DNA from: Winogradskyella aurantia
GTDB lineage: Bacteria > Bacteroidota > Bacteroidia > Flavobacteriales > Flavobacteriaceae
Direction of reading: 5' to 3'
DNA length: 64,000 nt
Assembly: GCF_002266855.1 (NCBI RefSeq)
Contig: NZ_NGJN01000009.1
Coordinates: forward strand, 1-64,000
Both the position numbers and the translations under genes were made by a program. The notes beneath the pieces were generated by a model. It saw only the letters and a list, made by a program, of their open reading frames with translations. It ran no database searches and was not told the origin of the DNA. Numbering within the stretch: the stretch's first letter is position 1; each line of letters begins with the position of its first letter. Shown here in pieces: positions 10,367-58,281 of this stretch.

Positions 10367-11737
10367 CTAATTGTTTAATTCAATGACTTTCAATCGTTTA
10401 TTTCTGCGCATATAACTTTGAATAATATGTTGAGTGTCTCTATTATTCTCCATTGGAGTAATGAGGGAGGTTAATATTGATCTATTATTTATTTGATGGT
10501 TTAAATCAAAATAACCAAGACCTCTAAACACACCATCTTCAATTAATATTACGCTTTTTTCTTCAATGTCTCGGCCTCTATCAATAAGTACCATATCCTT
10601 ATTGTCGTAAGAATTAATATTTATGACAGTATTGACGCGTTTATTGTATTTCTCTGTACTTTCTTCAGAAACACAGGCTCCATAACAATGTTTAATATCG
10701 TAATTAAAACAACTGGATTTTGATTTTTGTAGACCACATAACTTAGGGCATAGCTCGTAGTCTTCAATCACTCTATTCATGAATGATATACCACTTTGTC
10801 TATTGGCGAATGTAGTTATGGGTTTCTCCGTTTTTTTAAGATGATTTACCCTAAGGTTAATATAGCCGTTACTGTCTTTATAACAATATAGACCTTGCGT
10901 GAATTTATTTTGTTTTAGGGCTCTATTGAGAATGGGTTTGTTGCTTTTTATCTCTTCACTCTCTTTTAACAGCGCTACCAGTTCGCTGCCGGTTTTTTCA
11001 TAGGAGACGGATGAAACTAAAGCTTGAATTTTTTTTGATTTAGAGTTGGAATTGGTAAAATGTTGAGTGACCCGCTTTTTTATATTGTTGCTTTTTCCAA
11101 TATAGATAATATCACCGTCATCATTATGAATGTAATAAACACCAGTATCGCTAGGGAGTTCTTCAATTATATTTTTAAGATTGGAGGCAAGTTTTGATTT
11201 TTTTTCAATTTTAACAGCGTCTTTAATAATGGACTTACCGACATCTTTATTTAAGAGCATCTTAAATAATTTTATAGTAGCCAAAGCGTCACCATTAGCT
11301 CTGTGCCTATCACTTACAGCTATTCCCAAGGCTCTTGCCAATTTTCCTAAACTGTATGATTCCATTTCTGGGATTAACTTTTGAGCTAATTCCACAGTGC
11401 ACAGTGTCTTTCGTTTGAAGGGAAACCCTAATCGATTAAATTCTGTTTTCAGGATGCGGTAATCAAAATCGGCATTATGAGCCACTAGGATACAATTTTC
11501 AGTAATCTCAACAATGCGCTTGGCTACTTCATAAAATTTGGGCGCATTTCTAAGCATGTTAGAGTTAATACCAGTAAGGTTAACTACAAAAGGCTGGATA
11601 TCGCGCTCTGGGTTGACGAGGGAGATAAACTGATCGGTCACCTTATGACCATCAAATTGATATATGGCAATTTCGGTGATACCTTCTTCATTGTACTTTC
11701 CACCAGTGGTTTCTATGTCTAATATTGCGTAAATAAT
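10367..11737 (-). CDS. DEDD exonuclease (DnaQ-like) fused to GIY-YIG nuclease domain
   Basis: About 456 residues. The N-terminal half is a DnaQ/DNA polymerase III epsilon-like 3'-5' exonuclease with motif I DIETTGG, motif II AHNADFD and motif III HRANGDA. The central part is a GIY-YIG domain (GVYYIHN, IIYIGKS, KKRVTQHF) like the N-terminus of UvrC, followed by a Cys-containing tail (CPKLCGL, CFNYDIKHCYGAC). Such fusions are known and probably act in DNA repair. The start is the odd point. Motif I is encoded upstream of the first usual start codon (GTG at 11641), yet between it and the in-frame TGA at 11759-11761 there is no ATG, GTG, TTG or CTG. The best fit is ATT at 11735-11737 (ATT-TAC-GCA, giving (M)YAILDIETTGG). 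The adjacent Ile codon is also possible. Confidence 0.85.
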   Translation of the reverse strand: MIYAILDIETTGGKYNEEGITEIAIYQFDGHKVTDQFISLVNPERDIQPFVVNLTGINSNMLRNAPKFYEVAKRIVEITENCILVAHNADFDYRILKTEFNRLGFPFKRKTLCTVELAQKLIPEMESYSLGKLARALGIAVSDRHRANGDALATIKLFKMLLNKDVGKSIIKDAVKIEKKSKLASNLKNIIEELPSDTGVYYIHNDDGDIIYIGKSNNIKKRVTQHFTNSNSKSKKIQALVSSVSYEKTGSELVALLKESEEIKSNKPILNRALKQNKFTQGLYCYKDSNGYINLRVNHLKKTEKPITTFANRQSGISFMNRVIEDYELCPKLCGLQKSKSSCFNYDIKHCYGACVSEESTEKYNKRVNTVININSYDNKDMVLIDRGRDIEEKSVILIEDGVFRGLGYFDLNHQINNRSILTSLITPMENNRDTQHIIQSYMRRNKRLKVIELNN

Positions 11738-11807
11738 TCGAGGATTAAATTGAGCTATTCAAGTTTACGAAATTAATAAAGTCTAAATAGACTTAGAAAT
11801 GAAATTA

Positions 11808-12473
11808 CTAATAATCTCTTGCTCCAAAAATATTGCTTCCAACTCTTATCATAGTGCTGCCACAATCAATGGCCAATGGATAATCACCACTCATTCCCAT
11901 TGAAATAATTTGAAGATCACAGTTCTCTGTTTGAAAGGTTTTTAATTTATTAAAAGTTGATTTCAAAAAGTCAAATTCACTTTTAATTTGGGTCTGGTCG
12001 TCTGTAAAGGTGGCCATACCCATGAGCCCAACAATTTTTATGTTGGACAGCTGCTTTAGGGATTCAGATTTTAATAAGGCTTCTGCGTCTTTCGCAGACA
12101 TGCCGAACTTACTGTCTTCTTCTGCTATTTTAATTTGAAGTAGGCATTCAATGGTCCTTTGGTGTTTAGACGCTTGTTTATTGATTTCCTTGAGCAGTTT
12201 CAAACTATCCACACCATGGATAAGATTGACAAACTCAGCCATGTATTTTACCTTATTTCGCTGCACATGACCAATCATATGCCATTGGATATCTTTAGGC
12301 ATTTGCTCATATTTCTCAACCATCTCTTGGATTTTGTTTTCACCAAAAATGCGTTGACCTGAGCTATAGGCCTCCATTAGGTCACTAATAGGTTTGGTTT
12401 TGGATACCGCAACTAAAGTGACATGTTTTGGTAGTTCTGATTTAATTTGTTGTAAGTTTTTTTTAATACTCAT
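11808..12473 (-). CDS. YggS/PROSC-family PLP-binding protein
   Basis: 221 residues from the ATG at 12473 (MSIKKNLQQI). This family binds pyridoxal phosphate on a single-domain TIM barrel and keeps free PLP and amino/keto acid pools balanced; no catalytic reaction is established. The PLP lysine lies in TLVAVSKTKP, with FGENKIQE, WHMIGHVQRNK, SKFGMS, GLMGMATFTDD, LSMGMSGDYPLAI-like (ISMGMSGDYPLAI) and IRVGSNIFG as the other signature segments. Its start overlaps the end of the DUF1015 gene by 11 bases, so the two are likely co-translated. Confidence 0.94.
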   Translation of the reverse strand: MSIKKNLQQIKSELPKHVTLVAVSKTKPISDLMEAYSSGQRIFGENKIQEMVEKYEQMPKDIQWHMIGHVQRNKVKYMAEFVNLIHGVDSLKLLKEINKQASKHQRTIECLLQIKIAEEDSKFGMSAKDAEALLKSESLKQLSNIKIVGLMGMATFTDDQTQIKSEFDFLKSTFNKLKTFQTENCDLQIISMGMSGDYPLAIDCGSTMIRVGSNIFGARDY

Positions 12474-56575: not shown

Positions 56576-57595
56576 ATGATTCAAAGGATTGCCACCTTTT
56601 GCTGCTTACTGTTGACCATACCTCATTTTGCACAGTTAGGTGGTGAATCTACGTACCAATTTTTGAATTTAGTATCCTCACCAAGACAGGCCGCCTTAGG
56701 AGGAAAGGTGATTACCAATTTTGACCATGATGTAACGGATGCTTTGTACAATCCAGCATCTATTAATTGGCAGATGAGCAACCAGCTTGCCGTAAATTAT
56801 TCGAGCTATCTTGGCGGTATCAGTTACGGGACAGCAGCTTATGCCTACACTTGGGATAGGCATGTTCAGACCTTTCATATTGGGGTAACCTATATAAATT
56901 ATGGCACCTTTGATGGTTATGACGTTAACGGTATAGCTACAGGTACATTTACAGGAAATGAAACAGCCCTTTCAATGGGGTATAATTATAATATACCTTT
57001 TACGGATTTTTATGTAGGCGCCAATCTAAAGCTTATAACATCTTTATTGGAACAATACAATTCTTTGGGAGGCGCTGTTGATATTGGCGTTATGTACATC
57101 AACGAAAAGTTAGATTTTCATGCAGCTTTGACCATTAGGAATCTAGGAACACAATTTACAACCTATGCCGGTCAAACAGAACCGCTCCCATTTGAAGTGA
57201 ATTTTGGAATGTCACAAACTCTGGAAAATGTACCTTTGAGATGGCATTTAACCTTAGAGAATTTGCAAAAATGGCCTATAGGTGTTTCTAATCCAGCTCG
57301 TGCAACTACAGACTTAGATGGTAATCAAACACAGGAAAAGGTTGGTTTTTTTAATAACGCTTTAAGGCATCTCATTCTTGGGGCTGAATTATTTCCAGAT
57401 CGCGGATTTAATCTTAGGTTGGGCTATAATTTTAGACGTGCCGAGGAATTGAGAATAGTAGATCAACGAAATTTTTCAGGACTTTCGGTAGGCGTAGGAA
57501 TAAAACTTAATAAAATGCGATTTAGTTACACGCACGCGAGATATACCAGCGCGTCAAACACCAGTTTTTTTGGTCTTCAAATAGATTTACAATAG
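56576..57595 (+). CDS. porQ: Type IX secretion system protein PorQ
   Basis: 339 residues with a signal peptide (FCCLLLTIPHFAQ). The start of the mature part, LGGESTYQFLNLVSSPRQAALGG, and the later NPASI and LGAELFPDRGFNLRLGYNFRR are typical of PorQ, an outer-membrane beta-barrel of the PorV family needed for T9SS function and surface attachment of cargo in Porphyromonas. The window also encodes two T9SS cargo proteins. The stop codon overlaps the GTG start of cmk. Confidence 0.92.
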   Translation: MIQRIATFCCLLLTIPHFAQLGGESTYQFLNLVSSPRQAALGGKVITNFDHDVTDALYNPASINWQMSNQLAVNYSSYLGGISYGTAAYAYTWDRHVQTFHIGVTYINYGTFDGYDVNGIATGTFTGNETALSMGYNYNIPFTDFYVGANLKLITSLLEQYNSLGGAVDIGVMYINEKLDFHAALTIRNLGTQFTTYAGQTEPLPFEVNFGMSQTLENVPLRWHLTLENLQKWPIGVSNPARATTDLDGNQTQEKVGFFNNALRHLILGAELFPDRGFNLRLGYNFRRAEELRIVDQRNFSGLSVGVGIKLNKMRFSYTHARYTSASNTSFFGLQIDLQ

Positions 57596-58281
57596 TGAAA
57601 AAAATTATTATTGCGATAGACGGATTTTCTTCAACGGGGAAAAGTACAATTGCTAGAAAAGTGGCCAAGAAATTGAACTACATTTATGTAGATACCGGGG
57701 CAATGTACAGAGCTGTAACCTATTACGCCATAAAACAGGGTTTTATAAAGAATGGCGAATTAAATTCCGAGGGGTTAATCAGTGCCTTAGACAATATTAC
57801 AATTTCATTTAAAATGAATGAAGTTTCAGGAATTGCTGAAGTGTATTTGAATGGTAAAAATATTGAGTCTAATATTAGAACAATGGAAGTGTCAAATTAT
57901 GTGAGTCCTGTGGCAACCTTATCCGAAGTTAGAAAAAAGCTTGTTGAGCAGCAGCAACAAATGGGAAAGGATAAGGGAATCGTAATGGATGGAAGGGATA
58001 TAGGTACCGTTGTGTTTCCGCAAGCCGAACTAAAAATATTTATGACGGCCTCTGTTAAGACAAGAGCCCAAAGACGCTACAAGGAACTTACAGCGCGTGG
58101 GCATAATTTGGATTTTGATGCGGTTCTAGGGAATGTCACCACTCGAGACCACATTGATTCAACTAGGGAGGATTCACCATTAATTAAAGCTAAAGATGCT
58201 ATAGAAATAGACAATTCTGATTTAACTATCGAGGAGCAAGTTCAAACGATTATAACGCTTGCAAATAAAAAGATAACATAA
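57595..58281 (+). CDS. cmk: Cytidylate kinase
   Basis: 228 residues starting with GTG at 57595, which shares one base with the porQ stop (TAGTG). The P-loop GFSSTGKST, DTGAMYRAVTYYA, VMDGRDIGTVVFP and the lid RAQRRYKEL identify CMP/dCMP kinase, which makes CDP from CMP with ATP. It ends at a bidirectional terminator. Confidence 0.96.
   Translation: MKKIIIAIDGFSSTGKSTIARKVAKKLNYIYVDTGAMYRAVTYYAIKQGFIKNGELNSEGLISALDNITISFKMNEVSGIAEVYLNGKNIESNIRTMEVSNYVSPVATLSEVRKKLVEQQQQMGKDKGIVMDGRDIGTVVFPQAELKIFMTASVKTRAQRRYKELTARGHNLDFDAVLGNVTTRDHIDSTREDSPLIKAKDAIEIDNSDLTIEEQVQTIITLANKKIT

Follow-up and report, generated by a model that had tools for sequence, protein, structure and literature searches.

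The nuclease gene and its reading frame

The window, i.e. the whole stretch of DNA that was analysed, comprises 64,000 nucleotides of contig NZ_NGJN01000009.1 of Winogradskyella aurantia. The closest named relatives of this genome are Winogradskyella (Flavobacteriaceae). The subject of this work is the translation start of a nuclease gene on the minus strand of the window. The frame between positions 11761 and 10367 contains an in-frame TGA (11759-11761), two ATT codons and then, as judged from the open frame and from profile matches, the coding sequence of a 455-residue protein (10367-11734). Downstream of the TGA the minus strand reads ATA GCT CAA TTT AAT CCT CGA ATT ATT TAC GCA ATA TTA GAC ATA GAA ACC ACT GGT GGA, with the tandem ATT codons at 11737-11735 and 11734-11732. 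The sequence-only reading had stated that exonuclease motif I (DIETTGG, 11719-11699) is encoded between the TGA and the first in-frame GTG (11639-11641), in an interval devoid of ATG, GTG, TTG and CTG. This was confirmed on the minus strand.

When translation was assumed to begin at ATT, the RNase_T exonuclease profile (PF00929) matched residues 4-157 (11264-11725) over positions 2-164 of its 164 (E 1.9e-32), motif I included. With the GTG as start the match was limited to profile positions 36-164, and the first 35 positions, including motif I, were gone. A GIY-YIG domain (PF01541) was found at residues 198-262 (10949-11143; E 1.9e-09; 38.1 bits, gathering cut-off 22.6). The protein scored 95.5 bits with NCBIfam TIGR00573 (DNA polymerase III epsilon subunit family), above the curated cut-off of 71.5. 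By its sequence, the gene product is predicted to combine a DEDDh exonuclease with a GIY-YIG nuclease in one chain. The same pair of domains is present in NF005906 (PRK07883-type, 'DEDD exonuclease domain-containing protein') and in the known mycobacterial fusion of an epsilon exonuclease with a Cho-related GIY-YIG nuclease (PMC1564403). With NF005906, however, the window protein scored 254.5 bits, below the curated cut-off of 495.

Identification of the initiation codon

Orthologues were collected by genus, family and order searches and combined with named loci, giving 309 distinct sequences. Alignment of the N-termini, the check suggested with the sequence-only reading, placed ATT (112), TTG (102), ATG (53), ATC (22), ATA (15) or GTG (5) at one common position. 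In the 80 named relatives the codon that directly precedes Tyr (TAC or TAT) was ATT in 37, TTG in 23, ATC in 12, ATA in 6 and ATG in 2. The codon preceding this position varies among relatives and is a stop in some of them (e.g. taa taa ATT tac in locus L030). Because the second ATT (11734-11732) is aligned with TTG or ATG in relatives, and because the codon ahead of it is variable or a stop, the second ATT was assigned as initiator. The earlier proposal of an ATT start was thus upheld by the alignment, but the codon originally chosen (11735-11737) had to be replaced by the next one downstream. Hereafter ATT, ATC and ATA starts are collectively called AUH, and AUH plus TTG are called weak starts.

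AUH occupies the start position in 149 distinct orthologues. No in-frame ATG, GTG or TTG precedes it, back to the nearest upstream stop, in 135 of these; the other 14 have only TTG or GTG upstream, and ATG was found in none. All 28 loci titled Winogradskyella carry AUH (19 ATT, 5 ATA, 4 ATC). The start can flip within a genus: in Confluentibacter, the species lentus and citreus have TTG, flavum and sediminis ATT. In a paralogue with 40% identity, all 20 loci inspected by eye had ATG, GTG or TTG either at the aligned start or immediately ahead of it; the AUH start is therefore not shared by the entire superfamily.

On a single sequence alone, one could suppose that the start was lost by mutation or misread in sequencing, and that the gene is inactive or starts at the GTG. 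The sequence-only reading had left room for both, and for homologues that begin at the GTG without motif I. These explanations did not survive the comparison. The AUH class recurs in the 149 distinct orthologues; each of the 80 named relatives has ATT, TTG, ATC, ATA or ATG at this position, 55 of them ATT, ATC or ATA. All 229 distinct sequences of the first orthologue set have open frames of at least 400 codons. Motif I is retained in relatives, among which the GTG position is occupied by varying codons. We consider the probability of a lost or misread start negligible; as far as can be judged from the orthologues, the ATT start is neither an error nor the sign of a broken gene.

Some ATG-start copies of the Flavobacterium group (L304, L306, L308, partly L300 and L307) have in-frame TTG at every second codon upstream (e.g. 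ttg aca ttg aca ttg aat ATG), a pattern that resembles repeat slippage. In orthologues G226, G230 and G198 the frame is shorter, 367-433 codons, with an alignment confined to the first 272-326 residues; their C-terminal part is missing or diverged.

Distribution and exchange of start codons

A FastTree phylogeny was built from residues 8 onward of the orthologues. The window gene and all 28 Winogradskyella loci fall into a clade of 199 sequences (support 72), whose boundary was picked after the codons had been seen. The clade contains 110 ATT, 53 TTG, 22 ATC and 14 ATA starts and neither ATG nor GTG. The enclosing clades of 201 and 203 sequences still have no ATG and a single GTG. Outside the 199-sequence clade, the starts of the 110 sequences are ATG (53), TTG (49), GTG (5), ATT (2) and ATA (1).

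Parsimony on this tree required 84 changes. These include 22 from TTG to ATT, 9 from ATT to TTG, 13 from ATT to ATC, 7 from ATT to ATA and 19 from TTG to ATG, but none from ATT, ATC or ATA to ATG; the directions hinge on tie-breaking and on weakly supported branches. On supported branches, 15 independent pairs contrasted AUH with the other starts. Two substitutions separate TTG from ATT, and one of the possible routes passes through ATG, yet ATG is absent from the 199 sequences. This absence suggests that ATG is selected against in the clade.

The sequence-only reading had pointed to infC, the gene of initiation factor 3 (IF3), and this remained the closest textbook comparison. The infC start is AUU in E.coli and ATC in Streptomyces (PMC5472188). 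Thirty infC matches, the best of 117, were taken from the family and 29 were located; by eye, 28 of these start with ATA followed by GCA, one being ambiguous, and in the 28 no canonical start lies between the preceding in-frame stop and the ATA. Like infC, the nuclease gene has an AUH start and no canonical in-frame start. For its part, infC has an autoregulatory loop, and AUA is constant in the infC loci seen, where the nuclease also uses UUG.

With AUA as the infC start in this family, a joint response of the two genes to IF3 would be conceivable, and the nuclease start could be a switch as in infC and sigR: synthesis would rise when IF3 activity drops, coupling DNA repair to translation initiation. 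However, while 146 of the 199 clade members have AUH, the other 53 have UUG, which is counted as canonical for IF3 (PMC5472188); in the infC loci seen, ATA is constant. Free acceptance of UUG would not be expected of a conserved switch, unless IF3 in these organisms discriminated against UUG as well. An IF3 switch therefore appears unlikely; the exchange with UUG is in better agreement with a constitutively weak start, and suggests that it is the weakness of the start, rather than control by IF3, that is conserved.

The infC and nuclease genes appear to begin alike, GCA ATA being found among the initial codons of both, one codon apart. In the infC loci (L316, L377-L405) the triplet ahead of ATA is mostly GCC or GTC (ACC and GTT were found once each among the 28), though it is expected to be untranslated.

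Sequence context of the weak starts

Position -1 was U in 92 of 149 AUH copies, 80 of 102 TTG copies, 13 of 53 ATG copies and none of 5 GTG copies, i.e. in 172 of 251 weak-start copies and 13 of 58 copies with ATG or GTG. Tree-aware comparison of independent pairs gave 9.4 pairs for and 0.8 against this association (median p 0.012, range 0.0005-0.23). A U at -1 can pair with A37 of the initiator tRNA.

An overlapping out-of-frame AUG at +5, formed when TAT is followed by G, was found in 2 of 251 weak-start copies and in 15 of 58 ATG or GTG copies (Fisher p 7e-11 among copies with G at that place, relatedness ignored). In agreement with this, the Tyr codon 2 of weak-start copies was TAC in 222 of 224 cases when codon 3 begins with G, and TAT in 18 of 27 cases otherwise.

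The predicted ensemble energy of the segment from -25 to +25 was -1.95 kcal/mol for AUH, -2.81 for TTG and -4.50 for ATG copies, and about -7 in mid-gene. The leaders of AUH copies are A-rich at -13 to -11 (66-81% A). In Flavobacterium johnsoniae, Shine-Dalgarno (SD) sequences are absent, A-3, A-6, A-12 and A-13 are positive signals, and AUG is avoided near starts (PMC6847099, PMC8710568).

Synonymous codon bias in codons 2-7

Codons 2-7 (TAC GCA ATA TTA GAC ATA, 11714-11731) showed a synonymous-site bias. It was counted in the first orthologue set, over its 145 AUH copies, with the codons beyond 60 as background. TAC was used in 132 of 145 copies, GCA in 116 of 127 Ala codons at codon 3, ATA in 111 of 140 Ile codons at codon 4, GAC in 143 of 145 copies at codon 6 and ATA in 145 of 145 at codon 7. 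The corresponding background values are 34, 29, 26, 27 and 26%. Divergence from background was 0.68-1.93 bits in codons 2-7, 0.04-0.51 in codons 8-12 and 0.86 at codon 13. Codons 15-17 and 19-23 were near background; T9 (ACC), K13 (AAG in 101 of 144), G18 (GGC) and I24 (ATC in 67 of 138) were also biased.

The preference for TAC can be attributed to avoidance of AUG, since TAT before G creates one. Single synonymous swaps in codons 2-7 raised the predicted structure in 59-91% of cases. A swap to a U-ending codon also raised it at the unbiased control codons I22, I56 and D28, and did not at I46, D34 and Y25. Low structure as the full cause of the bias at codons 6-7 was only partly adequate: the unbiased controls I22, I56 and D28 behave alike.

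The bias could also mean that a specific cis-regulatory RNA element, the target of an RNA-binding protein or a small RNA, resides in codons 2-7, with the weak start as part of the regulation. The centring of the bias on the codons right after the initiator, and its near-absolute strength at codons 6-7, would fit such an element. But a search of the window's genome for the codon 2-7 motif, allowing up to 3 mismatches, returned one match, the gene itself, and no second site. Furthermore, structure and AUG avoidance explain part of the bias without any regulator, and GAC ATA is also present with ATG starts: the pattern accompanied an ATG start in 23 of 397 genomes, and GAC was found in 19 of 53 ATG copies. 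We regard a dedicated regulatory element as improbable. An antisense promoter in codons 2-7 was also considered and was dropped after inspection by eye: codon 5, the would-be core, is the least conserved of these codons. GAC ATA, near-invariant in weak-start copies, also occurs in some paralogues.

Neighbouring gene and other frames of the window

Upstream of the nuclease gene, on the same strand, lies a gene that we take to be yggS-like (11808-12473, probable ATG start at 12473), separated from it by a gap of 73 nucleotides (11735-11807). The same-motif search found this gene upstream in 78 of the 80 named loci, with a median gap of 58 nucleotides. In all 78 it has an in-frame ATG 12-30 codons ahead of its conserved motif, an argument against any general peculiarity of the assemblies or the code.

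The presence of this neighbour in 78 of the 80 loci, with a gap of 1-24 nucleotides in 24 of the 78, would be compatible with ribosomes entering the nuclease frame from the upstream gene, through read-through, a frameshift or obligatory coupling. The gap, however, ranges from 1 to 504 nucleotides with all remainders modulo 3, and an in-frame stop lies within 5 codons of the start in 74 of the 149 AUH copies. With frame and gap this variable, a fusion with the yggS-like gene or a frameshift out of it was rejected, and the explanation as a whole is very unlikely.

Three other frames of at least 150 codons in the window have their first ATG, GTG or TTG at least 20 codons past the stop. One is located at the window edge; in the remaining two the extra stretch looked non-coding by eye. 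An open reading frame at 57526-58278 on the plus strand, presumably cytidylate-kinase-like, has the kinase-like N-terminus KKIIIAIDG and its first canonical start, probably GTG, 23 codons after the stop.

Discussion

Taken together, the results make it probable that the nuclease is translated from the AUU at 11732-11734, and that selection keeps this start weak so that the enzyme stays scarce. The position and conservation of the codon, the absence of AUG and GUG in the clade and the initiation context are observed; from these we infer initiation at AUU, a low yield and harm from excess enzyme. The initiator tRNA would read AUU, or AUC, AUA or UUG, as Met, inefficiently. The four codons would be interchangeable weak starts, AUG and GUG would be selected against in the clade, and the little enzyme made would reflect a nuclease that is presumably harmful in excess. 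As the codon is weak, and as Bacteroidia, according to work on other members of the class, are generally without SD sequences, the initiation region would have to compensate: by U at -1, an A-rich unstructured leader, the lack of a nearby competing AUG and open codons 2-7.

Several observations weigh against this interpretation. The 199-sequence clade was delimited post hoc at a support of 72, and the next well-sampled clade out (225 sequences) has 8 ATG. In the tree-aware test the link between the overlapping AUG and the start class was not significant (median p 0.625), and neither GAC (median p 0.125) nor ATA at codon 7 (median p 1) was significantly tied to weak starts. The energy comparison and the Fisher test both ignore relatedness. 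A-3, a positive signal in F.johnsoniae, is found in just 40% of AUH copies. Finally, GAC ATA (11714-11719) is kept more strictly than low structure predicts, and with ATG starts as well. A more far-reaching version holds that for this repair nuclease the clade of marine flavobacteria obeys a 'never AUG' rule, with AUU, AUC, AUA and UUG freely exchanged and AUG and GUG purged, that codons 2-7 are a dedicated SD-independent initiation element through which such starts become usable, and that the gene may form an IF3-sensed regulon with infC; we consider this rather unlikely.

The E.coli gene pcnB reportedly starts with AUU. Both would be enzyme genes kept low by an AUU start. Unlike pcnB, the nuclease gene belongs to a phylum reported to be SD-less, alternates between AUH and UUG across the family and has biased synonymous codons after the start. 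In Staphylococcus aureus, ccpN (AUA) and cvfC1 (AUU) also have conserved non-canonical starts, and expression was shown to be cut to about 10% of that from AUG in poor medium (PMC13009471). By analogy with pcnB, ccpN and cvfC1, a low output of the nuclease is most likely. The two S. aureus genes have extended SD motifs (PMC13009471), whereas the nuclease gene seemingly compensates by the U at -1 and the open leader. Streptomyces sigR has a GTC start that is repressed by IF3, and a canonical start leads to overproduction (PMC5472188). A weak start that holds dosage down may be common to sigR and the nuclease gene, but sigR encodes a sigma factor and has an extensive SD sequence and a demonstrated IF3 dependence (PMC5472188).

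Conserved non-canonical starts are thus already known. In the literature listings and text passages searched, no description was found of such starts in a repair nuclease of SD-less bacteria, with repeated exchange of AUH and UUG and no AUG in a large clade, nor of an AUU start in flavobacteria or a conserved non-AUG start of such a nuclease gene. Experimental characterisation exists for very few noncanonical start codons (PMC5472188), and the examples sigR, ccpN and cvfC1 carry strong SD sequences (PMC5472188, PMC13009471), whereas the nuclease gene occurs in a phylum reported to be SD-less. The 149 distinct AUH sequences and the repeated AUH/UUG swaps amount to replicated natural experiments on the requirements of a weak start. 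Gene callers that require ATG, GTG or TTG would drop motif I of this enzyme in AUH species. The gene offers a direct test of how near-cognate starts are used on SD-less ribosomes, and of why a repair nuclease would be kept scarce.
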